Source: a virus. Taken from it: a DNA stretch of 41,205 nt. A model generated the notes under the pieces. The model saw nothing but the letters and a program-made list of their open reading frames with translations, was not told where the DNA came from and did no database searches. The DNA lies in the IMG/VR virus record IMGVR_UViG_3300030110_002776, positions 1-41,205 of that record; one strand, written 5' to 3'. A program made the position numbers and the translations under genes. Positions 2,899 through 35,900 of the stretch are shown here, piece by piece (positions within the stretch are counted from its first letter, which is position 1; every line of letters starts with the position of its first letter).

Positions 2899-2998
2899 TA
2901 GACCGTCTCCTTCTAATTAACTCTCTATCAGCTGTGCCTAAGCACCTTCAAGTAGAGTATATTAATTTGGAATAAGTCTATTACCGATGAATAGATTC

Positions 2999-7446: not shown

Positions 7447-9000
7447 TTAAGCTATAACCCAAGATTTAACTTGAGGCTTTTTTTTATAAAATCTTCCCTT
7501 CTTTTCTTCTTTGATTCCAATCGGTGGATTAGCATACTTACATGCATAAGCTAAAGCATCTATTGCATCATCATGTCCCATACGAGGGCCGAAGGTTATT
7601 ATTTCGTGCTCTAAGTCATACTGTTCTTTTTTAAGATGTATCTGACCTATTGCAAATCTTTGTGCTAGTATCTCTTGTATTCTATCTCTTTTACTCATTC
7701 GAGTTCCAGGTTTCTCTTCTTTAAATCTAACACTAAAATCGTTTCTCCTTCTAGTTTCTGCTCTAAGAGCCTGAAATACAGGTTTAGACATTGTCGTATC
7801 TTCTACTACAAATAAACTGGGATGGTATATTGAAGAATAATCAAACATGTAATCTACTATGCCTTTATTCCTCTCTCCTGGTATTCCTAAAACAGGTATA
7901 CCTCTTTTTCTCAGATAGTCTAAAACGTATATGTTATTATCTGCATCCACCCCAATTGCAAGTAACACACTATAGTCAGCATCTCTTCTTTGACTATCTG
8001 TCGCTGGGTCGACTCCAACAAAAACATTTATAGGCTTTAATTCTCCATCTATGTTTACAAAACATAAATCTGATTCTTCTTCATAGCTAAATAAGCCTTC
8101 CCAGTATTTTATATGATTTCTTGTAAATATTGAATCATCAGCACTTTGAACTTCCATCATATATTCTTGGTAAAATTTATATGGCTGTCCAGAATCAGCA
8201 TAAAACTTTTTCTTTCTTTCCATTTCTTTTTTACCAAACCAACTATTCCATAACATAGTTCCGTCTGACAATATTGCTTTTTTAAGGACTACATCCCAAG
8301 AAAATTCTTTACTCTCTTTAACAGATTTTTCATAGTTGACGATGAGATTATTGATGAAACTATCATAATGCACAGGTGTACCGTTAATACGAAGCCTGCC
8401 AGTACCAGGCTCAAGAGCTGGGAAAACCACCGCAGTAATAAGGTTGCTGTTCTTAGCTCTCGCTTCAGGGGTAATTGTGTTATTTTCATCTTCAAAATCA
8501 TCCAGTATTATTAAATCATATCTTTTATGTAGTTTAGCACCGCCTCTTATTCCTGAAATATTAGACTTGGAAATCAACTTACAATTGTTTTTAGTTTCAA
8601 CATCTGTTTCTGTCCATTTTGTGCCTTTAAGACTACCAAAATAATACAAAATTCTTTCATTAAATTCCAAATGATATTTTATATAATCCATATTTCCTGT
8701 CGCAAGTTTAGCAGTTGCAGACACCCAGCCATAGAACAAAGGTTCTTTTGTAAAACAAAAAGATTGCAATATATCGCATTTAGTTAGTACAGTCTTACCA
8801 TGACCCCTAGGCAATATAATAGCTGTTTGTCTTTTTTCTTTATCTGTAATAGTATCGGCAATCTCATAATGAAATGGAGGAGTTTCAGAACGCATAAAAT
8901 CGTCTTGAAGAAATAGTTTACCAAATGCAATTAAATCTTTACTTGCTAATAATAAAGCTTCCTCCTCCTTAGATACATTATGAAAATTGACGTTAGCCAC
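7447..9000 (-). CDS. terL: Terminase large subunit
   Basis: 517-aa DNA-packaging motor with both expected domains. The ATPase domain has a Walker A motif LPRGHGKT (about residues 63-70) and a Walker B IILDDFEDE (about 164-171). The C-terminal RNase H-like nuclease has acidic residues in VGVDPATD (D331), FVVED (E400-D401) and GHDDAIDALAY (D477/D478). The first codon is GTG at 9000, overlapping the TAG of the preceding 41-aa gene. There is no strong ribosome site of its own, so translation is probably coupled. The small terminase lies three genes upstream. The family is certain from the motifs. Confidence 0.95.
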   Translation of the reverse strand: MANVNFHNVSKEEEALLLASKDLIAFGKLFLQDDFMRSETPPFHYEIADTITDKEKRQTAIILPRGHGKTVLTKCDILQSFCFTKEPLFYGWVSATAKLATGNMDYIKYHLEFNERILYYFGSLKGTKWTETDVETKNNCKLISKSNISGIRGGAKLHKRYDLIILDDFEDENNTITPEARAKNSNLITAVVFPALEPGTGRLRINGTPVHYDSFINNLIVNYEKSVKESKEFSWDVVLKKAILSDGTMLWNSWFGKKEMERKKKFYADSGQPYKFYQEYMMEVQSADDSIFTRNHIKYWEGLFSYEEESDLCFVNIDGELKPINVFVGVDPATDSQRRDADYSVLLAIGVDADNNIYVLDYLRKRGIPVLGIPGERNKGIVDYMFDYSSIYHPSLFVVEDTTMSKPVFQALRAETRRRNDFSVRFKEEKPGTRMSKRDRIQEILAQRFAIGQIHLKKEQYDLEHEIITFGPRMGHDDAIDALAYACKYANPPIGIKEEKKGRFYKKKPQVKSWVIA

Positions 9001-9125
9001 TAGTATTTCTTTTTAGTGCTTTTAGTTTTTTTAGTCATTTTCTTACCAGTTCTTTTAGCGTACTTCTTAGCAGCAGCTTTACCTTTCTTTGTATAAGAAA
9101 ACTTTTTACCTCCAACTTTTGGCAT
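9000..9125 (-). CDS. Tiny Lys-rich protein next to terminase (41 aa)
   Basis: 41-aa protein beginning MPKVGGKKFSYTKKGKAAAK; nearly half its residues are Lys/Arg. A strong AGGAGG site lies just upstream of its ATG at 9125, and its TAG overlaps the GTG of the large terminase. Very similar short basic ORFs next to terminase genes are a recurrent feature of marine phage genomes as I know them. The function is unknown; binding DNA in the head or aiding packaging is plausible. Confidence 0.8.
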   Translation of the reverse strand: MPKVGGKKFSYTKKGKAAAKKYAKRTGKKMTKKTKSTKKKY

Positions 9126-9134
9126 AATCACCTC

Positions 9135-9269
9135 CTATTTTTTTTTCTTTTTACTTTTTTTCCAGCCTTGCTTCATATTAGCATAAGCTTTTTTAGATAT
9201 AGTTGTATTCTTTTTAGAACGACTAATACCTTTTTTCTTTCTTCTATTTATATTTTTTACTAAAGACAT
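9135..9269 (-). CDS. Tiny Lys/Arg-rich protein (44 aa)
   Basis: 44-aa frame beginning MSLVKNINRRKKKGISRSKK and ending in KKSKKKKK. An AAGGAGA site lies 6 nt before the ATG. The gene overlaps the 3' end of the Cys-rich gene at 9244 by 26 nt in another frame, and its stop runs into the ribosome site of the 41-aa gene. The two tiny basic genes plus the one at 6223 form a group of short cationic proteins around terL. Role unknown. Confidence 0.75.
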   Translation of the reverse strand: MSLVKNINRRKKKGISRSKKNTTISKKAYANMKQGWKKSKKKKK

Positions 9270-9474
9270 TATATCTCCTTATAACTATTTCACCATCAAA
9301 TCTATCTATTATTAACTGCATATAATCATCTCTCCAAAATTTACAACCTTTATTAATTATATTGTTAGGAACTTTTTTAGGAGCATCCCACCAATTGCAT
9401 AAATTATTTTTATAAAGAGCACAATCTAAACAATTATTCTGACTCAATTTCTTTAGGCCTTTCAGCTTCTTCAA
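9244..9474 (-). CDS. Small four-Cys protein, probable metal binder
   Basis: Up to 76 aa, with cysteines in NNCLDCALYKNNLCNWW and INKGCKFW, giving C-x2-C-x6-C and one distant Cys, as in a short zinc-binding module. The frame is open from a TTG at 9474. A TTG at 9447, 10 nt after an AAAGG, is the more likely start and gives a 67-aa product. It overlaps the end of the small terminase gene and the start of the 44-aa gene. No family is recognised. Confidence 0.6.
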   Translation of the reverse strand: MKKLKGLKKLSQNNCLDCALYKNNLCNWWDAPKKVPNNIINKGCKFWRDDYMQLIIDRFDGEIVIRRYNVFSKKYK

Positions 9475-10900: not shown

Positions 10901-11293
10901 ATGGAAACAAACATTCAAATATTCAAATGCTACTTCAAACTTATCACGTGGAACAATGGCACCGAGTCTTGCTACGCTTATACTACAACGCCTAGCTACT
11001 CTTGCACATTCAAGCTGAACGGAGAAACACATACTTCAAACATCAGCGTCAGAATGCCCAATGCTGAGAAGAACAAGAACGCACCTCAGATTACCAAATG
11101 GCTGAGTGATGAGCAAGGCAAAGCTTATCCCAAAGACATAGCTGATTTACATAGACAGGAATATGGCGACATAGCTTATTTCAAATATGATACTGAGCAA
11201 ATGCGTTTTGAGCTTATCAACCAAGGAGAGTACGATGCTCTTACGGCTGAACAACAAGCTACTCTTGGCTCTAGCACACACGCTTTCGTCTAG
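10901..11293 (+). CDS. Unknown early protein (130 aa), atypical composition
   Basis: 130-aa protein starting METNIQIFKCYFKLITWNNG, beta-rich at first, then helical and charged, ending AEQQATLGSSTHAFV. Codon choice is unlike the neighbours: many C- and G-ending codons and clearly higher GC than the 14-23 kb genes. There is only a weak AGG before the ATG. The composition suggests recent acquisition. No family is recognised; the position as first rightward gene suggests an early host-interaction protein, which is inference. Confidence 0.6.
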   Translation: METNIQIFKCYFKLITWNNGTESCYAYTTTPSYSCTFKLNGETHTSNISVRMPNAEKNKNAPQITKWLSDEQGKAYPKDIADLHRQEYGDIAYFKYDTEQMRFELINQGEYDALTAEQQATLGSSTHAFV

Positions 11294-11773: not shown

Positions 11774-11803
11774 TTGCATACACCTTCTCACCCAAGTATG
11801 CAA
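11774..11803 (+). other. Hairpin TTGCATAC/GTATGCAA
   Basis: Perfect 8-bp stem (11774-11781 with 11796-11803) and a 14-nt loop, 18 nt after the 49-aa gene. It is the only structure I see in the gap 11757-11902, apart from two CCTAG copies near 11863 and 11877. There is no U-run. Confidence 0.45.
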
Positions 11804-11902
11804 CAAATTTAGAATTAAACTTGACTATATACACAACATAACAAAAACCCATTGGTTGCGGGCCTAGCGTCAAACCTAGTGATGATGTAAAAGGAATAAG
11901 TA

Positions 11903-11962
11903 ATGGCGATTATTTATTCTCCTATCCAAACCTACAGGCATCTTGAAAGATATTTTGTGTAA
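11903..11962 (+). CDS. Possible 19-codon leader ORF
   Basis: MAIIYSPIQTYRHLERYFV, with AAGGA 7 nt before its ATG, ends just before the 11975-12037 hairpin and the 12051-12170 structured RNA. A short ORF ahead of structured RNA could be a leader peptide. At this length it may equally be chance. Confidence 0.25.
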   Translation: MAIIYSPIQTYRHLERYFV

Positions 11963-16139: not shown

Positions 16140-16886
16140 ATGAAAACATTATTAATCGACTTAGAGAATGGCTATAAATCTATTGGGAGTAAAGAAACTA
16201 TTAAAGAAAAATTTGGGTTACCCTTATTAAACTTTAATGACTTTACTTCCTTTAGAAATTTTATAGGTCAAATCTGGTCACGTAAAAAAGTAGAAAAAGA
16301 AGTACAAGTAGGTGGTATATCTGTAAAACAATCAGGCTATGAAATAATAGCTAAAGAGGGTGCAGAGGTAGACTGTATGGTTATAGATACAGCTAGTGAA
16401 ATGTCTAAGAAATATGCAAGAGAATTAAAAGGCAAAGCTGAACAATTGCAATTAAAGCAATGGGGCAAACTTAAAGATACTCTTGATAATTTCTTTTCAT
16501 TTACTAATGCTATACCAGCTAATCTTATTGTTAATTGTCATTGTAAAATGCAAGAAGATAATGAGAATGGTGTAATGAGAGTTATGCCATATATCGAAGG
16601 GTCTACAAAAGTAGATGTTGGTAAATGGTTTGATTTTGTATTATATACTAAAGTTCGTAAAGCTAAAGATGGTACTCGTGAATATGTATGGGTAACATCA
16701 AGAGATGAACATTATTGTCATGCAAAAGATAGAACACAAGAATTACCTGCTGAAATACCACAAGATTATAGTATAATATTCGATGCTGTTAATAAAAAAG
16801 GATGGGATACTGCTAAAGTACTTGTGATAGGTGAGCCAGGTAGTGGTAAGACACTTAGTCTAAGAACGTTAACGAAAATAAACTAG
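16140..16886 (+). CDS. Circularly permuted P-loop ATPase, Sak4/AAA_24-like
   Basis: 248-aa RecA-type NTPase related to phage Sak4 recombination ATPases. In the usual order Walker A comes first. Here the protein begins MKTLLIDLENGYKSIGSKET, the strand that normally follows the P-loop helix. It continues through Walker B VDCMVIDTAS (77-86) and a sensor-like strand LIVNCHCK, then ends with the Walker A motif VIGEPGSGKTLSLRTL (229-244). Joining the C-terminus to the N-terminus would give the standard domain. Start (AAGGAG, 9 nt) and stop are clean. The SSB-like gene follows after 8 nt, as in other Sak4-SSB pairs, so strand annealing or exchange is the likely role. Confidence 0.8.
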   Translation: MKTLLIDLENGYKSIGSKETIKEKFGLPLLNFNDFTSFRNFIGQIWSRKKVEKEVQVGGISVKQSGYEIIAKEGAEVDCMVIDTASEMSKKYARELKGKAEQLQLKQWGKLKDTLDNFFSFTNAIPANLIVNCHCKMQEDNENGVMRVMPYIEGSTKVDVGKWFDFVLYTKVRKAKDGTREYVWVTSRDEHYCHAKDRTQELPAEIPQDYSIIFDAVNKKGWDTAKVLVIGEPGSGKTLSLRTLTKIN

Positions 16887-16894
16887 GAGAAACT

Positions 16895-17413
16895 ATGGGA
16901 ATAGTTGTAACTAAAAAAGAAGGTGGTGGATATGATGAAGGTTGGAAAACTGTAACTGTATCTAACGCTGTAAAGGGTGATTTCAATGGCTCTAAATATA
17001 TTGATTTACACTTTGAAGGATACCCTGAAACTGTAAAATGTCGTGTATGGGAAGCACGTAATAAAGACGGAGAAGAGTTCTCTGTATCTAATATGGTAAG
17101 ATATATTAATCCAACTGTACTAGAAGAAATGGATAAAGATGGCACTGCTGCTGCTAGTCTTGATGATTCGCCAAATGGTTTAAAAGGTAAATCATTACAA
17201 GTGTTATTTTATAAAAAAGCTAATGGCTATTCTGAAATATCACAAAAGGTAGCACCTGCTGTACCATTTGAAAATATAGTAGATAAATTTGACGACAATA
17301 GAATTGCTCGTATAAAAGAGTCTGCTGAAAAATACCAAGCTAGAAGAAATGAAGCTAATGGTGTTGTAAGTGAAACAAATACCGAGTCATCAAATGGTGA
17401 TGTTCCTTGGTAA
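16895..17413 (+). CDS. Single-stranded DNA-binding-like protein
   Basis: 172 aa. The beta-rich N-terminal two thirds contain TVTVSNAVKGDFNGSKYIDL and VLFYKKANGYSEI, consistent with an OB-type domain. A flexible polar linker leads to the C-terminal tip SSNGDVPW. An acidic tip with proline and a terminal aromatic is typical of SSB proteins, which use it to dock partners. It lies directly between the ATPase and the primase-helicase, supporting a replication/recombination role. AGGAG precedes the ATG. Not matched to a named family with certainty. Confidence 0.7.
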   Translation: MGIVVTKKEGGGYDEGWKTVTVSNAVKGDFNGSKYIDLHFEGYPETVKCRVWEARNKDGEEFSVSNMVRYINPTVLEEMDKDGTAAASLDDSPNGLKGKSLQVLFYKKANGYSEISQKVAPAVPFENIVDKFDDNRIARIKESAEKYQARRNEANGVVSETNTESSNGDVPW

Positions 17414-17431
17414 AATAGTATAAACAATAAC

Positions 17432-17526
17432 TAAAGAGAGTCATAACTCGTCCTGTATAAAAGTCCTAACTACGATAACCTTTTCAGGTGCCCTGTTAGG
17501 CAGAGGAACACGTATGGCTCTCTTTA
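17432..17526 (+). ncRNA. Structured RNA element C in the primase-helicase leader
   Basis: A perfect 9-bp closing stem TAAAGAGAG/CTCTCTTTA (17432-17440 with 17518-17526) encloses CCTAAC/GTTAGG (17465-17470 with 17495-17500), capped by ACCT-TTTC-AGGT (17478-17489). Its 5' part resembles element B: GAGAG, ATAACT, GTCCT, TA and AGTCCTA occur in the same order. It fills the only real gap in this part of the operon and ends 20 nt before the primase-helicase ATG, so cis-control of that gene is plausible. Confidence 0.65.
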
Positions 17527-17546
17527 TTAACATAAGGGGAAATAAT

Positions 17547-19292
17547 ATGATAAGAGAATTTGCTTTCGGATTATCAAATAGACATCACTTCTTCCCAAGT
17601 GATAATTCAGTAAAATGGGAAAACGTGGCTAAAGATACATTTCTATCCTTATATGGCTATGATGAAGAGGTAATAGAATACTTTAATGAAAAGAAAACAC
17701 TATCAGGCTATAATGGTATAATATATCTTCCAAGAGAATTTATGCTTGACGTTGATGGTAGTGAAATTGAAGAAGCTCAAGAAAAAACTATTAAATTAGT
17801 TTCTATGCTTAATAATATTGGCGTTCCTAGTAATATTTATTTTAGTGGCAGAGGGTTTCATGTTGGTATTCCAGACAAAGCATTTAAATGGAAACCAGAT
17901 ACAAATCTTCATTTAAAAGTTAAAGATGAGTTAGATAAAAAAGGTATATACAAATATGCTGATGTATCTGTTACTGATAAAACAAGAATAATACGTCTAA
18001 ACAACACATTAAATAGTAAATCTAAATTGTGGAAGATTTATATAACTAATGAAGAATTACTTGAACTAAATAGTTTAGGTATTAAAGCTTTAGCTAATAA
18101 ACCAAGACAAATAGAAATACCTGTATTACAATGTGAACCTGTATTTGATGTAACTGTTAGGGAAGTTAAAAAACAAACTATAAAATACAAAGAAACTGTA
18201 GGTAAAGAACCTGACCCTATGTTATATCCATGCATACAAACAATGTTAAAGGGTACATCTTATGGTGGTAGACATGCAACTGCTTTACGTCTTGCTGCTT
18301 GGTTAAGATGGCGTTATCCAGAAAATATTGTAAGACTTGTAATGGAAGACTGGCGTAAAAGAGTAACTACAAATGAAAATCCATTTAAACAAATAGAAAT
18401 GGACAGAATAGTTACTGATTGCTATAAAGGTCATAATGGTAGTGGCTATAGATATGGCTGTAATGATAAAATAATGGATAAACATTGTAATTCTACATGC
18501 ACATTATTTAAATCAAAGAAATCTCAAGGTATAATGTCTGCTAATGATATGGAAGAAAATTTAATTAGCTGGCTTAAAGGAGACGTAGTTCCTATAAATA
18601 TTGGTAAATTGTATAATGCAGACTTTCCTGTATATCCAGGCGAGTTAGTAGTAATACAAGCTCCACCAAAATCTATGAAAACTATGTTGCTTCAAAATTG
18701 GGTTAATTCATTTAAAAGACCTACATACTTTTTAGAGATGGAGATGTCACCAAGACAGATATGGCAACGTTTCATTCAGATAGAACAAGGATGGACTGAA
18801 GAACAACTTAAAGAACATTATGCTACTGGTCAGTATAAAATGGCTGATAAATTTAATTGGCTTAATGTTGACTATAATGCATGCTTTGCTATTGAACTAG
18901 AAAAGAAAATATCTATGTTACAAGAAAAGCCTGAGATTGTAGTAGTTGACCATATGGGCTTATTACTTTCTAAACATAGAGACTTAAATCTTAAAATGGA
19001 AGAAATAGCAGGTGCTTTAACTGAAGTAGCTGTTAAGCATAACATAGTTGTATTTGCTATATCTGAGATTACTAAATCTGCTATGGTAGAGGGTATGGGT
19101 GTTTCTTCTTCTAGAGGCTCATTTAGAATAGCATATAATGCAAGTAAAATATTATCACTTAAACCAGACAAAGGTTTAGATGGTAATGTTAAGTCATTAC
19201 TTGTTACTACAGAAGCTAACAGAGAAAGAGGTGCTTTAAATACATTAATTAAAGTAGATGGTGTTAAAATGTTAAGTGCAAATAGAGGTTAA
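17547..19292 (+). CDS. Primase-helicase fusion (AEP primase plus DnaB-like helicase)
   Basis: 581 aa from ATG 17547, which follows AAGGGG; an upstream in-frame ATG at 17514 lies inside element C and has no ribosome site. N-terminal archaeo-eukaryotic primase motifs: MLDVDG (D68, D70), SGRGFHV (100-106) and IIRLNNT (R150). Four cysteines (C229, C305, C314, C318) could bind Fe-S or zinc as in PriL-like domains. The C-terminal RecA-like helicase has a P-loop QAPPKSMKT in which the usual Gly before Lys is Met, Walker B IVVVDH (465-469), GSFRIAYNASKI and EANRERG. It would prime and unwind at the viral fork. No DNA polymerase is in the window. Confidence 0.85.
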   Translation: MIREFAFGLSNRHHFFPSDNSVKWENVAKDTFLSLYGYDEEVIEYFNEKKTLSGYNGIIYLPREFMLDVDGSEIEEAQEKTIKLVSMLNNIGVPSNIYFSGRGFHVGIPDKAFKWKPDTNLHLKVKDELDKKGIYKYADVSVTDKTRIIRLNNTLNSKSKLWKIYITNEELLELNSLGIKALANKPRQIEIPVLQCEPVFDVTVREVKKQTIKYKETVGKEPDPMLYPCIQTMLKGTSYGGRHATALRLAAWLRWRYPENIVRLVMEDWRKRVTTNENPFKQIEMDRIVTDCYKGHNGSGYRYGCNDKIMDKHCNSTCTLFKSKKSQGIMSANDMEENLISWLKGDVVPINIGKLYNADFPVYPGELVVIQAPPKSMKTMLLQNWVNSFKRPTYFLEMEMSPRQIWQRFIQIEQGWTEEQLKEHYATGQYKMADKFNWLNVDYNACFAIELEKKISMLQEKPEIVVVDHMGLLLSKHRDLNLKMEEIAGALTEVAVKHNIVVFAISEITKSAMVEGMGVSSSRGSFRIAYNASKILSLKPDKGLDGNVKSLLVTTEANRERGALNTLIKVDGVKMLSANRG

Positions 19293-19293
19293 T

Positions 19294-19782
19294 ATGAGTA
19301 AAAGAAGTCTAAATGAAATAAGTAGTGATATAATGTTAGTACAAAATAGTTTTGAATTAACTGAACAAGAAATTGATGAACAGTTAGATATACTGCATAC
19401 TGAACTACATAAAAAAGAAAATGGTGTTTACTGGTTTTATAAGAATATAGATAGTAAGATTGATTTAGCTAAAGAGTATAAAGAAAAAGCTGATATGGTT
19501 ATTAAAAAGCTTAAATATACTCAAGAAAGCTTAAAAAATCTTGTTATCGAAGCTTATGGAGCTAGTGGACAACTTCCAGCACATGATGATTTCAATCCAA
19601 TTAAAATAGGTGAAACAGGTAAAGTAGAAATAATAGATGAAAAAAAGATACCTGAAGAATACTATGTTGAAAAGATTGTATTAAAGCTGGATAAAAGAAG
19701 GCTACTTGAGGAATTAAAAGAGGGAAAAGATATTCCTGGAGTAGTATTACAAACAAACAAACACGTCAGGGGGTTAAAATGA
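19294..19782 (+). CDS. Gp157-like protein
   Basis: 162 aa. It fits the phage Gp157 family: an N-terminal helical region (LTEQEIDEQLDILHTEL), a coiled coil with KYTQESLKNLVIEAYGASGQ, then a short beta part with VEIIDEKKIPEEYYV and a C-terminal IPGVVLQTNKHVRGLK. ATG 19294 is preceded by AGAGG; the upstream in-frame start at 19276 would overlap the helicase gene further. It is found next to recombination genes in other phages; the biochemical role is not settled. Overlaps the DUF932 gene as ATGA. Confidence 0.75.
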   Translation: MSKRSLNEISSDIMLVQNSFELTEQEIDEQLDILHTELHKKENGVYWFYKNIDSKIDLAKEYKEKADMVIKKLKYTQESLKNLVIEAYGASGQLPAHDDFNPIKIGETGKVEIIDEKKIPEEYYVEKIVLKLDKRRLLEELKEGKDIPGVVLQTNKHVRGLK

Positions 19783-20579
19783 TAAATGCTTATGGAGAAA
19801 TAAGAAAGGTACCTTTAGATTATCAAGGTATTAAGTCTTCAGCTTATGCTGTACAAAGACAAGAAATGGATAAAAGAAGAGGTCTTGAATGGAAAGAATG
19901 TGGAGTAGTAGGTAGTAATTATCTGTTAGTTCCAAATGAAGAAGTAAGAGATATGGCTCTTGAAATAGCTACTAAATCTAAACTTGATTGGAGTGCAATG
20001 AAAACATTCTTTGATGGTAAAAGATACATTCATTTCATGCAATCAAAAACTAATACTACAGAAATAGCAGAAGGTGATGATGTTGCACTGGGTATGGGTT
20101 TTTGGAATAGTTATGATGGTTCAACAGCTCTACAATTTAGAACGTTCCTCGTAAGATTACTATGTACTAATGGTATGATTACTAAAGATTTTATGAATCT
20201 AATGAGGTTCAAGCATAATAAAACATCTGAAGGTTATGAAGATGAGATTATAAACGCTGCTAAAATAGTAGATAACTGTGGAGATGACGTACATGAAGTT
20301 ACTAGTAGAATGAGAAAAATGGTAGAAACACCAGTTGATTTAAATGAACTAGCTATTTTAAGAAATACTAGTTTAAGTGAATTGCCAGTAACATTATGGG
20401 GTAAGATTAGTTCACATTTCTTATGGAAAGAAAGAAATAAAATCTTAAATAATGATACAACATACTGGGATTTCTATAATGCTTGTACTGATGTACTATG
20501 GCATGATAAGAAACCAACAATGGCATCATTTGAACATAATCAAAAGATAACAGATAACCTTCTTCAAGTTTTTGCGTAA
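19779..20579 (+). CDS. DUF932 phage/plasmid protein
   Basis: 266 aa with the typical DUF932 order: N-terminal RKVPLDYQGIKSSAYAV, central MGFWNSYDGSTALQFRTFLV and RLLCTNGMI, and a C-terminal helical region near TYWDFYNACTDVLWH. The family occurs in many phages and plasmids near recombination genes and its activity is unknown. AGGGGG upstream, ATGA overlap with the Gp157-like gene. A strong hairpin follows its stop at 20601. Confidence 0.75.
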   Translation: MINAYGEIRKVPLDYQGIKSSAYAVQRQEMDKRRGLEWKECGVVGSNYLLVPNEEVRDMALEIATKSKLDWSAMKTFFDGKRYIHFMQSKTNTTEIAEGDDVALGMGFWNSYDGSTALQFRTFLVRLLCTNGMITKDFMNLMRFKHNKTSEGYEDEIINAAKIVDNCGDDVHEVTSRMRKMVETPVDLNELAILRNTSLSELPVTLWGKISSHFLWKERNKILNNDTTYWDFYNACTDVLWHDKKPTMASFEHNQKITDNLLQVFA

Positions 20580-20600
20580 TTTGGAGGAACGCTGAGAGCA

Positions 20601-20632
20601 GGGGAGAGTTAGGGCATATACTAGCTCTCCCC
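20601..20632 (+). terminator. Strong 12-bp hairpin between two early genes
   Basis: GGGGAGAGTTAG (20601-20612) pairs with CTAGCTCTCCCC (20621-20632), one G-U pair in plus-strand RNA, 8-nt loop. It lies in the only gap after the DUF932 gene. ATTAATTAGGGG follows, not a T-run, so it is a candidate processing or partial-termination site rather than a classic terminator. Confidence 0.5.
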
Positions 20633-20649
20633 ATTAATTAGGGGAAATA

Positions 20650-21501
20650 ATGAAATTTATACAAAGAAAAACAATGAAAATAAGACCATCTGGTCGTAGT
20701 AGTGATTTTATAACACCATCATTTGGCTTTGGATGTTTATATAAATGTGAGTATTGTTATATGAGAAGACATTTACCTAATGGTTTAAATATTGCTACAA
20801 ACACAGATGCTATAATTGACGAAATACATGCACATTTATGGTTATTACCATGGCCTAAAAAACCTAATCAAACACACGAAAAATATTATACATATGATTT
20901 TAGCTGTAATGAAGATTATATATTACATGCAAAGTATCATGAATGGGATTTATTATTTGATTACTTTAAAACAAATGATAAAGCTATGGGTACTGCAGCA
21001 ACTAAATACGTTAATAAAAAATTACTGGGGTATGATGCTAACAGAAAAATTCGCATAAGGTTTAGCATTATGCCTCAAGTAATATCAGATAAACTAGAAC
21101 CTAGCACATCTAAAATTATAGATAGAATAAAAGCTGTTAATGATTTTTATGAAGCTGGTTATGATGTTCACCTAAACTATTCGCCTATTGTAGTATATAA
21201 AGATTATATAAAAGATTATATAAAATTGTTTAAATTAGTAGACGAAATAGTGGATGAGAGTATTAAAAATAAAGTTAAAGCTGAGTGTATTTACTTAACA
21301 CATAATGAAAAAATGCATAGTATTAATAGTGAAGATGCAAAAGATTTATTATGGAAGCCAGAAATACAGGAGAAAAAAACTTCTAATTATGGTAATGTAA
21401 ATATTAGGTACAAATACAAATTAAAAAGAAAATATATAGAAAATTTTATACAAGCACATGATAATGCTTTACCATGGCAAGAAGTTAGATATATATTTTA
21501 G
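20650..21501 (+). CDS. Radical SAM protein, spore-photoproduct-lyase-like
   Basis: 283 aa. FGFGCLYKCEYCYMRR gives the C-x3-C-x2-C 4Fe-4S motif (C29, C33, C36) at the N-terminus, with SAM-barrel strands after it (KIRIRFSIMPQVIS, YDVHLNYSPIVVY). The ClyrCeYCY form, a basic R-P-S-G-R-S-S lead-in and the overall size resemble spore photoproduct lyase relatives. Repair of a DNA photolesion is therefore possible, but DNA or tRNA modification is equally open. AGGGG precedes the ATG. Followed by small coiled-coil genes. Confidence 0.75.
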   Translation: MKFIQRKTMKIRPSGRSSDFITPSFGFGCLYKCEYCYMRRHLPNGLNIATNTDAIIDEIHAHLWLLPWPKKPNQTHEKYYTYDFSCNEDYILHAKYHEWDLLFDYFKTNDKAMGTAATKYVNKKLLGYDANRKIRIRFSIMPQVISDKLEPSTSKIIDRIKAVNDFYEAGYDVHLNYSPIVVYKDYIKDYIKLFKLVDEIVDESIKNKVKAECIYLTHNEKMHSINSEDAKDLLWKPEIQEKKTSNYGNVNIRYKYKLKRKYIENFIQAHDNALPWQEVRYIF

Positions 21502-22129: not shown

Positions 22130-22274
22130 TAACTGTAAATGTAAAATAGAGCAAAAAGAATCATTTGAAAAAATGGCAAATAGAGTTCTTAAAGCTACGA
22201 AAAAAAAACTAGAAAGGGAGTCTAATTTTGGCATCCCAGATACTAAGGAGAAACAATGGAAAAAAACAAAGTAA
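22119..22274 (+). CDS. Small Cys/Lys-rich protein (51 aa)
   Basis: 51 aa beginning MICSNCKCKIEQKESFEKMA, with CSNCKC at the N-terminus and a Lys-rich helix behind it. GGGAG lies 7 nt before the ATG. It overlaps both neighbours in other frames (11 and 19 nt). Possibly half of a zinc module, or it dimerises to complete a site. No family is recognised. Confidence 0.55.
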   Translation: MICSNCKCKIEQKESFEKMANRVLKATKKKLERESNFGIPDTKEKQWKKTK

Positions 22275-22438
22275 AAAAAACAGCTGCAGATAAGAAACCT
22301 GCAAAAAAAGAAATAAATGAGTTAATGGATTTGCAAAACATAGTTATAGGAATGCATAAGAAACTACAGTTAATTGAAACTAGGACAAGTAGTATAGAGT
22401 CTTGGGTTAAAAAAGTTAGAACAAGAATAGGAATATAA
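22256..22438 (+). CDS. Small basic coiled-coil protein (60 aa)
   Basis: 60 aa beginning MEKNKVKKTAADKKPAKKEI, then a helix with LQNIVIGMHKKLQLIETRTS. The KKEINELM stretch resembles the NKEI segment of the 21510/21712 pair, so it may be a diverged relative. AAGGAG precedes the ATG; the stop overlaps the next start as TAATG. Confidence 0.65.
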   Translation: MEKNKVKKTAADKKPAKKEINELMDLQNIVIGMHKKLQLIETRTSSIESWVKKVRTRIGI

Positions 22439-22641
22439 TGCATCTATCTAGAAAATATATTAGAAAAGCTTTTACAGAAATCGGCATTCAATTAAGTGAG
22501 AATGCTTTAGATAAATTATCTGAAAAATTGAAAATCGATATAGGTAAATACGCACTTAATGCTAAAGATTTAGGCATTAAACGAATAACAGAAGAAAAAG
22601 TTCCAATAATAATAGGAGACTTTAAAGATGGCTTCAATTAG
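22438..22641 (+). CDS. Histone-fold-like protein (67 aa)
   Basis: 67 aa, the size of an archaeal histone. The order fits a histone fold: helix 1 (RKYIRKAFTEIG), loop 1 with QLSENA where histones have RVSDDA, a long middle helix (LDKLSEKLKIDIGKYALNAKD), loop 2 with IKRITEEKV where histones have GRKTIKAEDI, and a short helix 3. Basic residues flank loop 2, but the DNA-contact pattern is weaker than in HMfB. It could compact viral DNA or mimic a host histone. TAATG coupled; the next gene overlaps its end. Assignment is by eye. Confidence 0.55.
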   Translation: MHLSRKYIRKAFTEIGIQLSENALDKLSEKLKIDIGKYALNAKDLGIKRITEEKVPIIIGDFKDGFN

Positions 22642-22855
22642 AGACAAAGCAAAAAACCTTGTTGAGTTTGCTAAGTACACAAATGATAATGAACTTGACT
22701 CTGTGGTAAAAGAGATTGTAAATTTAGTACAGGAACAAAGACTAGAATTATTAACAGAAGTTTTATCACTAATTAAAAGAGGTGCAAGTGAAACCATCAT
22801 CCAGGAAAGGAAAAGGCAGGAGGCTGCAAAACTTTCTAAGAGACAAACTTTATAA
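22628..22855 (+). CDS. Unknown helical protein (75 aa)
   Basis: 75 aa beginning MASIRDKAKNLVEFAKYTND, two or three helices with an acidic middle and a basic C-terminus (ERKRQEAAKLSKRQTL). AGGAG lies upstream, inside the end of the histone-fold gene. The last 68 nt are shared with the nuclease gene in another frame. No family is recognised. Confidence 0.7.
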   Translation: MASIRDKAKNLVEFAKYTNDNELDSVVKEIVNLVQEQRLELLTEVLSLIKRGASETIIQERKRQEAAKLSKRQTL

Positions 22856-23135
22856 TTATTTCCCTACCCTCAGAGAGGGTGACGTTAAGACAGCTGTAAT
22901 GGGAGAGTCTGGTGAAGATATCATTCTTTCCCCTGCAGCAAGGGATTTAATACCGTTTAGCTTTGAATGTAAAAATCAAGAAAGGTTAAACATATGGGAA
23001 TCTTTGTCTCAAGCCGAAGATAATTGCAAAGAATATATACCTGCAGTAGTATTTAAAAGAAACAGAACCAAGACATATATAACTCTTGAATTAGAAGAGT
23101 TTTTAAAAATAATAGGAGAAACAAATGAACGATAA
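22788..23135 (+). CDS. PD-(D/E)XK nuclease, Holliday-junction-resolvase-like
   Basis: 115 aa from GTG 22788 (AGAGG just upstream; GTG 22782 is an alternative). It begins KPSSRKGKGRRLQNFLRDKL, then GESGEDIILSPAARDLIPFS and FECKNQERLNIWESLSQAED. The D...E-x-K pattern (D in GEDI, FECK) and the conserved SPAAR and CKNQE stretches match a widespread family of small phage nucleases. It would cut branched DNA before packaging or act in recombination. It overlaps the previous gene by 68 nt and the next by 11. Confidence 0.75.
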   Translation: MKPSSRKGKGRRLQNFLRDKLYNYFPTLREGDVKTAVMGESGEDIILSPAARDLIPFSFECKNQERLNIWESLSQAEDNCKEYIPAVVFKRNRTKTYITLELEEFLKIIGETNER

Positions 23136-26900: not shown

Positions 26901-29900
26901 TTATACACCTCTACAAGCATCTCTTATTATAATCTCTATTGCTTGTCCACCTTTCATTTCTCTAACTTTGTCTACTTTAATTCTACTTTCATTATTCACG
27001 ATATCATTGTATTCTTTAAAATAAGCCTTAATAATAGAAGCGTCAAGTAAGTTTAAATTCTTAGGATTAACACTTACTGGAGGTATAGATATTGGATATC
27101 TATTTTTACCAGTTACTGAATTATTCTGAAGACTCATTAAACCTCTCAAAAAATATAATGTTGCTGCAGATTTAGCTGTCTCACTTAAAGCTCTAAATTT
27201 AAGGTCATGTTTTTCAATCCAATTAATAAGTTCAGTATTAAAATTCATAATATCAGAACCTTTAACAATAATATTTTTTAATAAAGATAAATATTCTTTA
27301 CTCATATTCTCTGCATATATTCTACCTTCTCTATCTTGAGATTTAGCCCATGTGTCATTAGTTCCTTTAAAGTTCCCAAGTTTTTTATCTTTTTCAACTT
27401 TAGATTCAAATATTTCAAGCCCTAATCTATTAATATATTCTACACTTTCAATGTGAGCATTTTTATGCACATCATTTGATATATAATAAGGTGAGCCTTC
27501 ATATCCAAAATAATTCCAATTTTTTTCTAATTTGTTCCAAATTTTATAAGGTAATATAGCTAAACTTTCTAAAGCAGTTAAAGAACTATTTTTAATATCT
27601 ACTTCGTATTGATTATCTAGTATAAGAGCTTCTCTATATATATTTCCAGCTTCTAAATTTGTATTATCATCTAATCCCATAATAATTTGTAATTCTTTAC
27701 TATTTTTTATCATATCTCTTAAACCATATTTTTTAAATGAATCTAAGCCTTTTCTTACATTGTTTACTCTTGTAAAAAGATTTAAATGAGCTACTATTGC
27801 ATCTAAATGCATATTTTTAGCTGTTTCATTTTGAATATTTATATCTAATAAACTTTTTAATAATCCATTCTTACTGTAATTCCATTCTTCCAAAAGACTA
27901 AATTCGTTATTGTCAGCAGCAGCTTGTAACCATATTCTTAAATATTCATCAACAGTTCCTGACCAGCCACCTTTTTTACCTAAGTAAGTTGCTTCAGGAA
28001 ACTTAATTATTTCATCAGGTTGTCTGACTCTTATTTTTATATTAGTATTTTTAATATTAAATCCGTTATAAACTTGACTTATAATACCGTATATTAATGC
28101 CACATTAGAAACTTCAGATATAGCATTCTGTCCAGCCATTAAATTATTCATAGTTTCAAATCTAGATTTTTGAGTTAGTGGATTCTTAACAATACCTGAA
28201 GCAAATTTATTTAAATCAACTCCTTTTACTTTTAAACTATCTAAATAAGGTTTGTAAACAGCTTCTGTTTCAGGACTTAGTAATTCTATATGAACTTCAT
28301 CTCCATCATAATCTCCTTCAAGCTTAACAAATACATCTCTCCAATTTAATTCTGCTAAGTGACTTCTTTCATGTAAGTTTTTTACTCTAGCCATAAAAGC
28401 TCCACCTTTATGAACTACTGGACTTCTTGTTATCATAACATTGATTTCGTGTTTTTCAAGCAATTCATTTAATCTTGATACTGATAATTTTTTACCACCT
28501 GCAGAATTTTGTCTTGGAATACCTTCTAAATCATGCAGTCTGTCTATAACCATTTGTGAATTTTGTACAGCTAAAGATACTTCTGATGTATTGCTATCAG
28601 GACTTAGTGAAGATTTCAAACTACCAGTAAAATCAGGAGATAAATCATATATAGAACCAGGAGAGTCTCCCATATTAATAATAGTATCAACTATTTGAGT
28701 TTGAACTAATTTATCTACTTTTATTTGTAAGGATGGATGCAGACCTGCACCAAGTTTTGCAAGTTCAAGTGCAATGTCATCAAATCCTTCTATATTTTTA
28801 CCTTTTAATTTATCAAAGAATTGAGCAATACTATTCTGTGCTGCAACTCCACTTTTTGTATTTGGAACAAACCTTCCTTTATCATCCATTTTACTACTAA
28901 AAGATAAATAAAAAGCTCTAGATAATTTCTTTTCTACTTCAGGAACCATTACATTTACAAAATGATTAATTACATTTTCATCATAAACATAGTTATACCA
29001 TTGCATTATATGTTTAATTGTTTTTTTATGAGATTCTGCAAACTTAATAACACCTAAAGATTCTCCTGGAATTGTTATTCCTGTATTACTTGGAAGACCA
29101 AAGCTGTCATCAATAAATCCAGAACTAAATGCTTTATTAGTTTCCATTTTTATTTCATCTTCAGTAGAAAGCATATCAACATATATTCTAATTTCATTTC
29201 CTTCATTGTCAGTATCAATAGCTTGTATATTTCTATTGTCGTCAACTATCCATAAGACTTTTTTTGTTTTTTTATCTATTACTTTAAACCCTTTTTTAGG
29301 TAAAATGTGGTTATGTTTTACAGCTAACATTGAACCTAATTTATTATTAGCATATATAACAGTTTTTAATTTTGCTTGATTAGGTGCTAAACCAAAACTA
29401 TCTTCAACTTTTTTAAATAAATCTTTAGAAGTTAAACTGCCACCATCTCCTATATATTTATTAGTTATTCCACTACCACTTCTTACAGGATTAAACTTTT
29501 TACCATCTATATATTGAAATTCAACATCTTTAGGGTCAAATTTAGCAATTGTAAAATCAGACATTTCTTTACTTCCAGTGATAGGGGTAAATGGTATTTT
29601 AATTCTTTTAAATAAATTAGATGCACCTTTTGGATTTGCTAAGTAGTTAGGAAATATTTTATTCATTTCATAATAAACAGCTATATCTTTTGCTATATTT
29701 GCAATTGGTTGATTTAAATGTTCTTTTATAAATTGTTTTTTAATTTTAATATCTTCAGCATTAGAGTCATCTTTTGGTAATTCATTATTCCAAAAATTAT
29801 TTAACTTTTCTTTATTTGAAGCAATATCTAAAATAGAATCACCATATTCTTTTTGAAATTCTAAATTATCTGTATAATTAAAAAGACCTAATTTCTTAGA

Positions 29901-32900
29901 ATCTCCTCTAATAAAAGCTATTGTTAAACCTAATTTATTTACTTCTTTTTCTAACATCTCTAATTCTTTTGTATTAAAAAATGTATATGATTTACCCCAA
30001 TCTTTAAATTTAACTTGATTTCCAGTTTGAGGATTTGTTGTATATATTTGGTTTCCATTTTCATCAAATTGATTAACTAATCCAAGTACATCTCCTCCAC
30101 TAATAAAGGATATATTTTTATTACCCATAATAGATTCATATAATGTTTGTTTTTCATATTGATTATTTTGATTTCCTGTTACTACATTTATAGGCCCTTT
30201 AAGCTCAACTTCTATTTTTGTAGTTTCAAAACTATTAGTTTCTTGATTAAATTGTTGATGCTTTTTAATAACATAATTATCTCTTTGATTTAATGCAGCT
30301 ACTGGTTTACCGTTAATTAATTCTATATTTCCATTAGTTTTTAAAGAATACATAACTCTGTTATAATATTTATGCAATGCATTATCTTGTCTTTTTGTTA
30401 AAAACTTAGCACTACGTTTAAAATAGTTAGGCATAACAAAATTTTTCCAAGAATTATAATCTGCATAATCTCCTATTTTAACACTTGCTGTAATCTTTTT
30501 TATATCAGATTTTTTTAATGTAATATTTAATTCACGTATAGTTTGTAAATCAGCTTTACTAACATCTCTTTCATTTGTACCTGCTTGTTCTGATATATTA
30601 GCTAAACCTTCGTCTAATTCATCTACAATATCAATAACAACTTCGTTCATATCATCAGTATTAATCCAATGGTATTTAGATTTATTATCTAATTTTCTAA
30701 CATATTTTTTATCATTTCTCTTATCAGCAAACTTTTTATTAAACCATTTTTCAAAGCTATCTTGTACAGGGTCTAATCCAGATAAAGCATCTAACATCAT
30801 ATCTCTATATTCAAATATATCAGCCATTTCAGTAACTTTACTTATAAAATTTATATAATTAGTTTTTCTTAAATTATTAACTTCTTTCCATGCAGTTTCA
30901 AACATATCTTCTGCTATCTTAGTATCATATAATCCTAGTATAGGTTTATTAAGATTCTCGATATCAATCTTTCTTTTAATTTTTGTTTTAATCTGCGTTT
31001 GATTTTGAGGTTTAGTTTTATTATTTATATTATTTTTTAATACTTTCTTGTATCTATAAGGCAATAACTTATCAGGGTTTTTAACATCAACTGTCCAAAG
31101 AGGATATTGAGCCCAATCAGGAAAAGCTAGTCTTAAATTTAAATTATATTTTTTACTTGTTTTTTCTAACTCTTTAGTAAATATACCTTTACTTATTGGA
31201 ATTATCTTTAAATCAAAACCTGCTTTTTTCATTTGTTCTTCTAACATTTTATAGTCATCACTTCTTTCTAAAGTAAAATCTACTTTTTGAGAATATTTAT
31301 CTCCTTTTATTTTATATTTAGTTATATATTCAAATTCTCCTTCTTTAATATATGCAGGTGTATCTTTATCAAACTTTATTTTATTTTTAGAAAGAGCTTT
31401 AAATATATCAGAGTATTTAGAATCGTTTATCATAAAATCAAAAAAATCTTTATAAATACGATAACTTTCTTTTAAACTTAAATCACCTATTTTTTTTCCA
31501 TATGGAGCTAACTTTTGGAAAAGATTATCATAAGCAACTACTAGCATATTGTTTGCTGTAAAAGAACCAAGTTTTTCTGTTACCTCTGCAATAAAATCAT
31601 CAGCAGGAATATTGCTTATAAATCTATCAATATTATCCCATTGAGCTTCTTCTTGAGTATTATATACACTTTTAGCCATAGCATTGCCTTCTATTAAAGT
31701 AATTACTTCTCCAGTATTTAAATAAATAGGTTTATTTGGATTTGTTAAATAAGCATGTCTAATAGAATGTAATATATTAATATTAAACCAATTTTTAGAT
31801 AATGACACAACTTCTTGCATTCTTTTAATTTCTAAACTAGAGTCAATTTCATCTTTAAAGCTTACTTGAAAATCTTCACCTTCTGGAGATAAAGATTCTA
31901 CAGCTTGTTTTTGAACAACGTCATAAGCTGTTAACAAAGATATGCCCATTTTTAATTGCTTATGTATATAATTTTTAGTAATATTTTTTAATAATAAATC
32001 AAATGTTTTATCTGTTGTTCCTTCTTCTTCTAAAATATTTTTAACCCATTCCATTTTTTGAAGAGTAGTTTTATGAGTTTCATAATCTCTCTTATAATTA
32101 CGATATTTATTTCTTATAAGGTTCCACTTTTTTAACTCTGCCCATTGTAATTTTCCAGTTTTAGATAATTTAAATTTTCTATTTCCATTACGAGAAATAA
32201 GGTCTGACATTTTAAACACACCTTCATCCATCATTATCATGTCTTCTATATACACAAAAGCTCTTCCTATAGAAGTATTAGAATTATATGTTCCAAATTT
32301 ATTTGTATCATAATCACTTTGCTCGTTATGCAATTTTAATAAATATTTATAAAAACTATTTTCTGGGTTTCTAATATTTCTACCCTTATCCATTAAAGTA
32401 CCTTTTGGAAATTGTAAATATCCATCATAACCATAATCGTCATCTTGCCACCATTCCCAAAATTCATATAAATCTTTTCTATCTTGTTTTGTATAAGGGC
32501 TATCTTCTCCGTAACTAAATAAAACATTTGAAATTTGCTTTGCTATTCTTAAATCAGGAAATTCATCATATTTTTTATTTTTAAGACTATTTAATTGAAT
32601 ACTAAATTCACTATTCTCATTTAATATATCTGCTGGTGTTATATTATAACTAGTTTCTACAAAAAAGTATTTATCATCTAAAAAATCATTTGATATAATT
32701 TCAAACATTTCATCTAATATTTGATTAGTAGTAGGAACATACCCTTCTAAATTATTAGGATTTAATCTTTTTTGAGCTCCAAAATAAATATCATTTAAAA
32801 TTTTGTCTGCTATTTTAGTATTAATTATATTTATTGATAAATTCCAATTTATTTTTATATCATTTATACTTCTCTTATTTGCTAAATTAACAACAGAAAT

Positions 32901-35900
32901 ACGACCTTTTTGTTCTGGAGAATTAATATCTATATCTTTACCTAATACGAGTAAAAGACTCTTTAATCCATTCATTTCTATTTCTTTGTTTAATCTATCA
33001 TAAACTGAAAACGCAGGTCTATTTGCATATTTTCCTACTGAAATACTTGATATTGCTTTATTTAAAATAATAGGAACATTTCCATAACTAGTTTGAGTAT
33101 AGCCACCTTTTTCAATTAATTTTTCTACAGATGGCATTGATTTAATATCATCTTTAGTTAAAACTAAGTCTTTCAACTTGTTAGCATTTTTCATAATGTT
33201 AATAAATTCCATTAAAACATCTGATTGAAATTCAAATAATAGTTTTCCTCCATCACGAGTAGGAGAAACTCCATACCATCCAACTCCTGTACCACCATCT
33301 AATTCAGGAAAACCATGCATTATTGCACCTGTCCAAGAATTGTTCATATGAGCTACCATTCTATAAATGCTATTATTGTCTCCGTAAGCAAGAAAGTCTT
33401 TTGATACACCAGTTGCAAGTGAAATTCCATCCTGTAAATATTCTGAAAATGCAGTAGTCCCTATGTAGTTTAATCCACTTTGTGCATTTGAATAATTTAA
33501 ATATAATTCTGCTAATACAGAACGTTTCATAGACTTTGTTTTAGGGTTTTCTTTTTTAAATTGATTTACAAAACTTTTTATGTTTTCCTGCTCATTTTTT
33601 CTTATTCCAGGCATTTTAAGCATATCATCTATATTGTATAAAGCATCTGGATTACTTAATAATATATCTACAGGTTTATAAATAAATTCTACTTTTTGAT
33701 TTAATGCTACCATTGCAGTTGCAGCATCAAACAATTTATCTTGAAACTTTTTAGTATCAACATTAATTACTGAATATGCACCTATAAGATTTCTTATTTT
33801 ATTCTGTATTTCACTTTTAGCTTTAATTACAGCATCTTGATTTTGTAAATGCCATTTTCCTCCAAATTTTCTTCTAGTTATTTTATAAGTTTTTTCAATA
33901 GATTGAGTCCATTTTTCAGTAAGAGATATAATATCTATTTCTTTTTTTCTAGAAATAATACTAGTAAGCATATTTTCAATATTTTTTTCTTCTGAATACA
34001 TAATAGAGTTAGTAACATTTTCAATTATTTCTTCAGGTGAATTATTTACTGGAAGATTGTCATTGCTTATTTCATTTATAGTTTCAAAAATATTTTCATC
34101 TAAATTGATTTCATACCTATTTTCAAAATTTGTTATTATATTAACAAGGTCTCTTAAACTAGTATTCGGACTTAACATTTCAGCTTCAGAACCAAATATA
34201 TTTACTTTTGTTTTTAATCCAAGTTTTTCAAAAAGCCAATTAAAGAAATTTTGAACAGCTTGAACTAATTTATTTTTAGAATTATATCTATAAATATTTC
34301 CTTTACCAGCTTCTTCTATAGCACGAACAACTATTTCTTCTTGAATATCTACCTCTGTTTCATCTGCATATTCTAATCTTATTCTATCAATATCTAATCT
34401 TTCTGAATTAATAACTTCATCATATATCTTTTTAAATAATTTAGGGTCAGACATTCTAAGCATAGAAACAATAGGATGAGATAGTTCATGCAATACTGTT
34501 CCTATATCTACTTTAGCTTTATTAACAACTATAGTTTTGCCTTGTATATATCCAGAGTCTTCTTCAGGATTATCAATAAACTCTAATTTGAATTTGCCTT
34601 TTTTTAATTTAACATTTGATATAAGTTTATTAAATATATCTTTAGTATTTTGTTCAAATTTATCTTTTCTGTCTTGTTCTATTTCTTGTTTAGTAGGAGC
34701 AATATCTACTTTCTTTTTCTTTTTATCTAAACCTTCATCTATTTTTTTTTGTCTTGCATCTTCTGCAATCTTAGCTGCTTCTTCTCCATAATTATCTTTT
34801 ATTAATTCAACTAATTTTGACCCTGTATGACTTAATGCTTTAGCTGGGGTTAAACTTTCAAATTTTTCTATTATTTGTGTTGAACTTATATCATTTCGAG
34901 TTTTATCTTTTATAGGTTTGAATACTTTTTCTTCAACTTCAGGAAGTTCTTCTTTTTTAGTTCTATCTAATTTTTCTTTTTCATATAAGTCTAAAGTTTT
35001 TTCTGCTATTGTTTTATTAAAACCTGTCGATACATTTATAGCAATCTTTTGTTTTTCTATAGCAGAGTCTAATTCTTTATCTGACATTTCTTGAGCTGTT
35101 TTACCTCTTCCTGCAGGAGCTCCTTGAGGTCTTTGTGCCCCTGTATCAACTTGTTCAGTAGGAGCTTCTTGTGTAGGGCCTGTTTCAATTGGAGGACCTG
35201 TTTCAAATTCAGGGCCTGTTTCTGGTCCTGCTTCAGGTATTATACTTGTTGGAGTATCTTGAATAACGCCTGTAGGTTTAGGGCTTACAACAGGAGTAGG
35301 AGTATCTTTAGTGTCTACTTCTTTTTCAAGTCTTGTTGTAGTTGGTTTAGTATTTGTACGTTTTGCATCATTTATAAATATATCTTCAAGAGTTTTTCTT
35401 TTTTGTTTATAATCAGCATCTTCATCAAAAGCCATATCAAATCTTTTAAATATTTTCTCTTCTCTTTTACGAACAAAGTCTTTAAGATTTTCATCTTGAC
35501 TTGTTAATATCATATTTACAGAATCTATTATAATACTAGAATCTTCATCAATACCAGCACTTTCAGCGTCTTCTTTTATTTTAACTATTTCTTCATTCTC
35601 ATTACTTAAATCTTCTAGAACAAAAGCTCTTATACCTATCTTTAATTTATTTAATTTTTGAAAATCACTTTGAACATTTGAAGGAGTGTTTTTAACTTCT
35701 CCCTCATTTAAATTTGAAAAATCTTTATGCAATTTAATAGCATCATCATTTTCTAATCCTTCTAAGCCACCAAATTTATCAAATGTTCTTTTTACTTTAA
35801 ATAAAAAGTCATTATTTTCTTTTGCAACTCTTTGAGCATTACCTTTCTTTTTAAAAGTATCTTTGCCTTTTTCAAATATATCTCCATTATTATCATATAT

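Follow-up and report, generated by a model that had tools for sequence, protein, structure and literature searches.

A small tailed-phage protein with a predicted short-α2 histone fold, encoded beside replication and recombination genes

A gene at positions 22438..22641 (+ strand) of the virus record IMGVR_UViG_3300030110_002776 encodes a 67-aa protein with a predicted histone fold, an assignment that draws on the open reading frame (ORF), AF2 modeling, Foldseek and VIA-align comparisons, residue conservation and dN/dS. The record is a tailed phage contig of 53,637 bases, and the window analyzed here comprises its first 41,205 nucleotides. The protein is probably a phage-encoded, single-domain histone-fold protein with a short α2 helix (bacterial or α3-like), which would act as a dimeric DNA-bending protein on replicating or recombining phage DNA. 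There is little record of histones in tailed phages, and the sole published class that we found has an extra tetramerization helix. If phages widely share a bare histone that has the proportions of bacterial ones and a different DNA edge (Q in L1, KR in L2), this would widen the histone universe. Such a family also bears on how the short bacterial histones arose, and it offers a small protein for testing what a minimum histone does to DNA.

The gene and its family

Translation confirmed the ORF of the original prediction, with an ATG at 22438, a stop codon ending at 22641 (+ strand) and a product of 67 aa. Both loop signatures named there are present exactly, QLSENA as residues 18-23 and IKRITEEKV as residues 47-55. 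Relatives were gathered via the protein itself (4 loci), the neighboring primase-helicase, the terminase, and sub-family scans. A profile search located the family on 30 distinct contigs, the window counted in; contig 3300030207_002800, which carries only an end-cut piece of the family gene, was excluded from this number. The family members are 64-74 aa long and the predicted histone fold fills them. The net charge, calculated for eight of them, is modest at -0.5 to +5.6 (+2.6 for the window protein). The gene is real and under purifying selection, with dN/dS values of 0.04-0.31 for the window gene versus seven relatives (NG86; the set of eight sequences gave values for 25 of the 28 pairs, dS being saturated in three).

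In related phages the gene is accessory. The family profile matched 11 of 32 long related contigs, and the remaining 21 were all still negative with a wider profile; among 14 further records, the family was matched in five. In the related contig L015, members of both flanking gene families directly adjoin each other, with no histone gene in between. The family extends beyond the phage group of the window, as judged from contig L150, in which a divergent member (2992-3189, + strand) with 23% identity to the window protein is placed in a different gene neighborhood.

UniProt entry A0A516LUS5 (BFVD model, 64 aa), which shares 77% identity over 62 columns and has a TMq of 0.88, is a direct homologue deposited earlier without a name. 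Further unnamed viral protein models were matched with probabilities of 0.84-0.99 and E-values of 0.14-0.57. When 50,697 named phage records were searched with three family members as queries, no homologue was retrieved (scattered matches only, E 0.4 or worse), and the Bdellovibrio histone HBb, used as a query against the same records, likewise found none. The PHROG family phrog_7935, which has no assigned function, weakly matches 10 of the 16 members (best 7e-5) in their α1-α2 part (22450-22554 in the window) and may be a longer relative.

Predicted fold and structural matches

The AF2 prediction, made with 16 sequences, yielded five models of similar confidence (mean pLDDT 86.3-87.9, best 87.9), with a pLDDT of at least 90 in 54 of the 67 residues and block means of 92-97 across residues 11-60. 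The model follows the α1-L1-long α2-L2-α3 order of the histone-fold superfamily. Predicted helix α1 (residues 5-13; 22450..22476, + strand) is basic and includes the invariant I8 and F12, α2 spans residues 21-44 (22498..22569, + strand), both being placed by AF2 and the alignment, and α3, placed by AF2, spans residues 52-59 (22591..22614, + strand). In the best model α2 is a single unbroken helix of 24 residues.

A Foldseek search against the PDB gave 899 matches at E≤10, and every one of the best 50 is a histone, NF-Y, MHF, or a chain from a nucleosome or SAGA complex (the table gives complex names only, and we take the SAGA chains to be TAF-type histone-fold subunits). The first-ranked match was the Leptospira histone HLp (probability 0.99, rmsd 2.2) and the fifth was Bdellovibrio HBb, while archaeal HMfB (5t5k) was matched with a TMq of 0.71. 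The E-values against histones were 0.14 and above, which we attribute to the shortness of the chain. VIA-align produced Z scores of up to 6.1, including 5.9 for HMfB (rmsd 2.3 over 62 residues) and 5.5 for HLp (rmsd 2.0 over 55 residues). Since Z values of this size can reflect a common arrangement, the weight rests on the uniformity of the structure-match list. The downstream 75-aa helical protein (22628..22855) served as a fold control: its AF2 model is a long hairpin with a pLDDT of 78, and the Foldseek search with it gave 32 matches, with a top probability of 0.18 and no histones. The short-long-short model, the Foldseek and VIA-align histone matches and the negative neighbor control together bear out the predicted histone fold, and the modeled monomer is the three-helix unit expected of a handshake dimer.

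Weak Pfam signals point in another direction, namely to a small EF-hand-like or helix-turn-helix protein misfolded by AF2. EF-hand models matched 7 of the 16 members (best E 0.05; one EF-hand_8 match at 0.00098), and HTH_3 matched one of the 16. This explanation is very improbable, given that the acidic loop of an EF-hand is absent from the sequence, the five AF2 models are alike in confidence with α2 unbroken in the best of them, the structure-match rows are filled by histones, and the profile matches are in register.

Sequence relation to histones

The original prediction proposed a profile search with the histone-fold model PF00808, and this search left the window protein and all 16 family members unmatched. 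A 20-member family profile gave 21 matches up to E 10 among PDB sequences. H2A.Z or H2A.V account for 18 of them (E 0.09-0.55), but represent one family, and hence not 18 independent matches. The H2A.Z/H2A.V alignments that were printed are in register across α2-L2-α3, with KRIT or KR[IVL]T in common. An earlier, narrower profile built from 16 members gave 19 PDB matches, with CENP-X (MHF2) in five of them, and the CENP-X model PF09415 matched one of the 16 members. Both PDB lists point towards histone folds at the predicted register, although neither is significant alone.

In hhalign comparisons, the family scored 20.8 (probability 19.6) against the two solved short-α2 histones, HBb and 9f2c, versus 11.8 (probability 0.5) against four archaeal nucleosomal histones. 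The controls, consisting of two neighbor families and alignments with one side reversed, scored 7-16 with probabilities of at most 2.0. A reversed-versus-reversed pair gave a probability of 11.8, and this equals the same pair read backwards. All of these scores are low in absolute terms, and the P of 0.0012 covers one comparison. A class-preserving shuffle test gave p values of 0.013 and 0.021 versus HBb and 9f2c, respectively; its archaeal rows, for which the place of the deletion was picked post hoc, are not evidence. No single sequence or fold E-value versus a histone was significant (0.14 with Foldseek, 0.09 with the PDB profile).

Helix proportions and conserved residues

The spacing between S20 at the start of α2 and the L2 hydrophobic residue I50 is 30 residues in all 17 members compared, as it is in HBb and 9f2c, versus 34 in the four archaeal histones. 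Helix α2 is about one turn shorter than its archaeal counterpart, resembling that of bacterial histones. An α2 shortened by one turn is given as diagnostic of bacterial singlets in the relevant passages of PMC10627809, and a shortened α2 also as a feature of the α3 histone family in those of PMC11390915. The α3 (truncated) histones are defined there by an α2 that is 4-5 residues below nucleosomal length, and the spacing of the phage family agrees with this. The α3 helix of the phage protein has 8 residues (52-59, as assigned by DSSP in the AF2 model, where the helix end is uncertain) rather than the 3-4 of α3 histones, and we therefore do not claim full membership of that family.

Five residues are invariant in all 17 members: I8, F12, Q18, K48 and R49. 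Gln18 (22489..22491, + strand) is in L1, at the position of the sprocket arginine. K48 and R49 belong to the L2 motif IKRITEEKV (22576..22602, + strand), which is in register with KRIT of H2A.Z. In the alignment, K48 takes the place of the L2 lysine and R49 that of the threonine of RKT; the arginine at the place equivalent to R49 in H2A contacts DNA. The L2 signature of the family is KR[I/V/L]T...[K/R], and the RKTxxxD motif by which bacterial dimer histones are recognized is absent from it. The RD-clamp pair is replaced, position 47 being hydrophobic and position 54 being K, R or L (mostly K or R). Judged from the alignment, the conserved residues occupy positions that form the DNA-binding edge of histone dimers (the N-terminus of α1, Q18 in L1, and K48-R49 in L2), and the invariant polar ones map to the edge that holds DNA in known histone dimers.

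The original prediction had drawn a parallel with archaeal histones. This parallel did not stand: PF00808 is unmatched, the spacing is 30 instead of 34, and both the sprocket arginine and RKTxxxD are missing. An archaeal-type histone was rejected on the grounds of spacing, motifs and the missing PF00808 match.

By analogy with HBb, two copies of the protein would pair by the handshake, and L1 of one copy together with L2 of the other would form two L1L2 sites. Such sites may hold the DNA backbone like a clamp and, as in HBb, put a bend into a short segment.

Genomic context

The families of the terminase large subunit, portal and major head protein are encoded on the - strand, and the large ORFs in the remainder of the record are on the same strand and also look structural. 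The + strand carries a block of replication, recombination and repair genes at 16140..21501, identified with Pfam and PHROG as Sak4-like, primase-DnaB helicase, Gam-like, DUF932 and SPL-like. Replication and recombination genes accompany that of the histone-fold protein. Its ORF shares 1 base with the upstream ORF and 14 bases with the downstream one, all three being on the same strand.

This position suggests that the protein is made alongside the replication and recombination proteins, and that it may be a nucleoid-associated protein of the phage, which coats or bends replicating, concatemeric phage DNA in the cell, and not a late packaging protein. Tailed phages pump naked DNA through the portal, and the gene is located in the + strand replication block, apart from the identified structural genes on the - strand. 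Both points speak against a virion packaging protein that condenses capsid DNA in the manner of the doublet histones of Marseilleviridae. Giant viruses provide a precedent for such a role in the part of PMC11390915 used here, but for the present protein we consider it highly unlikely.

The upstream gene (22256..22438, + strand) encodes a 60-aa, Lys-rich helical or coiled-coil protein with the C-terminal motif R-[ILM]-G-[ILM] and a weak UvsY-like PHROG match (E 0.015). Its homologues adjoin the histone gene in 22 of the 30 contigs and in both orders, mostly upstream, and downstream in a divergent clade. In L015, two copies of the coiled-coil gene were seen by eye (11125-11289 and 11781-11960). 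This adjacency, the modest net charge and the absence of the DNA-binding clamp motif would also fit a histone fold that serves protein-protein contact only, with, for example, the coiled-coil protein, a host polymerase or a host nucleoid protein as partner and altered transcription as the outcome. However, the invariant Q18, K48 and R49 are on the L1L2 DNA edge and not on the outer α2/α3 faces, and the coiled-coil family is also found without the histone gene (L015), so that we regard a purely protein-binding role as distinctly improbable.

Downstream, the gene of the 75-aa helical protein used as the fold control (22628..22855, + strand) overlaps the 3' end of the histone gene and adjoins it in 15 of the 30 contigs. 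The idea that its product is a second histone, with which a heterodimer could form, was rejected, the AF2 model of this product being the long hairpin without a histone match. No second histone-fold ORF was recognized, 22628-22855 being the only other small ORF that was folded.

The next gene (22782..23135, + strand) encodes a RusA-like/PDDEXK Holliday-junction resolvase-like nuclease (phrog_244, 1.7e-17; PF24608, 3.4e-6). In 23 of the 30 contigs, the histone gene is followed at a distance of at most 170 bp by a resolvase-like gene of the same strand, with an overlap in eight of these, and phrog_244 also lies a few genes downstream in the divergent members L124 and L125, which were missed by the 30-contig profile. 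Combined with the CENP-X matches described above and the presence of the MHF complex among the Foldseek matches listed, this arrangement raises the possibility of an MHF-like cofactor, i.e. a histone-fold dimer or tetramer that recognizes branched DNA and directs the downstream nuclease or stimulates it, instead of being a general DNA organizer. Several observations make this reading rather unlikely. Many unrelated genes are brought together in the replication operons of phages, the resolvase-like gene is present and the histone gene absent in L015, L018 and L034, and L150 has the histone gene with no resolvase detected. Furthermore, MHF works as a CENP-S/CENP-X heterodimer, whereas no second histone-fold gene was seen here. 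The phage family and CENP-X/MHF2 have the histone fold, the profile match, the MHF entry in the Foldseek list and the link to recombination in common, but the α2 region of CENP-X is four residues longer (16-member profile alignment). It is a still more speculative suggestion, and an unlikely one, that the recombination operon of the phage encodes a minimal histone dimer of the MHF type, which marks or shapes branched DNA for the phage's own Holliday-junction resolvase. If true, the histone fold would serve phages of bacteria as a cofactor of junction recognition, in a family that is outside PF00808 and would be missed by classifications using existing domain models.

The host question

The original prediction also raised a histone-bearing host, and this was not upheld. 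The single hint of a host is L126, the only cellular-genome contig with a close terminase (85% identity), which belongs to a Flavobacteriales metagenome-assembled genome (MAG) and is a phage fragment. The MAG was unmatched by the A1 profile of the histone-fold family, and PF00808 was found in 0 of 198 genomes of its phylum. The A1 profile, run over 296 genomes of the same phylum, gave one partial, doubtful match (29 of 67 positions, E 0.004). The inference of a histone-bearing host was rejected, as L126 is itself phage and the MAG has no A1 match. A tRNA for host matching was sought in the record and none was found. We presume a marine origin, taking TMED in the name of the MAG to denote a marine series and considering the contig series as well. 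The family phrog_7935 matched 0 of the 198 genomes of this phylum; a match was also noted in the control genome of Bacteroides ihuae.

Comparison with known histones

The closest resemblance in proportions is to the bacterial histones HBb (Bd0055, Bdellovibrio) and HLp (Leptospira perolatii), which are likewise single-domain proteins of similar length and helix order. They also have the α2 shortened by one turn, and HBb shows the spacing of 30 that characterizes the phage members. In HBb and HLp, however, α3 is one turn long, compared to the 8 residues predicted for the phage family; moreover, the family is phage-encoded and has KR[IVL]T...[KR] in place of RKTxxxD. Archaeal nucleosomal histones, exemplified by HMfB, have the same three-helix fold, but they differ in the spacing of 34, the sprocket arginine, the RD clamp and the match to PF00808, none of which is found in the phage family. 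Eukaryotic H2A.Z shares the L2 KRIT motif in register, while the similarity over the whole protein is not significant (E 0.09) and the phage protein has no tails.

Phage histones are an already published class, and the bare form without a tetramerization helix would be a new variation. As described in the passages of Schwab et al. (2024) drawn on here, phage histones combine an N-terminal α3 fold with a C-terminal helical tetramerization domain, and they lack RxTxxxD but conserve the L2 lysine (PMC11390915). To the extent of that description, these proteins (type A0A2E7QIQ9) resemble the present family in their tailed-phage origin, the absence of RxTxxxD, and the L2 lysine at nucleosomal K63 (K48 here). 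They differ in their C-terminal tetramerization domain, for which the present family, ending soon after α3, has no room. A close relation between the two is possible. The histone H1-like protein of large phages is assigned to PF07432, an H1-type model and not a histone fold, in the pertinent part of PMC12619734. In the main texts of openly licensed PMC papers, searches turned up no account of a phage histone that is bare in this way.

Phages of bacteria may thus carry minimal histones of their own. The survey in PMC11390915 began from the InterPro histone superfamily, according to the section cited. More such histones may hide in phage dark matter, because the present family matches no Pfam histone model.

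Other observations

Three further ORFs were noted in the window and a related phage. The ORF at 26901-38051 (- strand) encodes 3716 aa without Pfam or PHROG matches and contains a DYDGD string, which we presume to be reminiscent of the DxDGD motifs of two-barrel RNA polymerases, and a metallopeptidase-like HELSH string. In L018, a related phage without the histone gene, an ORF at 8362-9387 (+ strand), which we take to be DNA methyltransferase-like from its SPPYWGLR motif, is located shortly upstream of the resolvase-like gene. Finally, 20650-21501 (+ strand) encodes a spore photoproduct lyase-like radical SAM protein (PF20903, 4.1e-22), and L001 and L003 have a close relative of it in the corresponding position.
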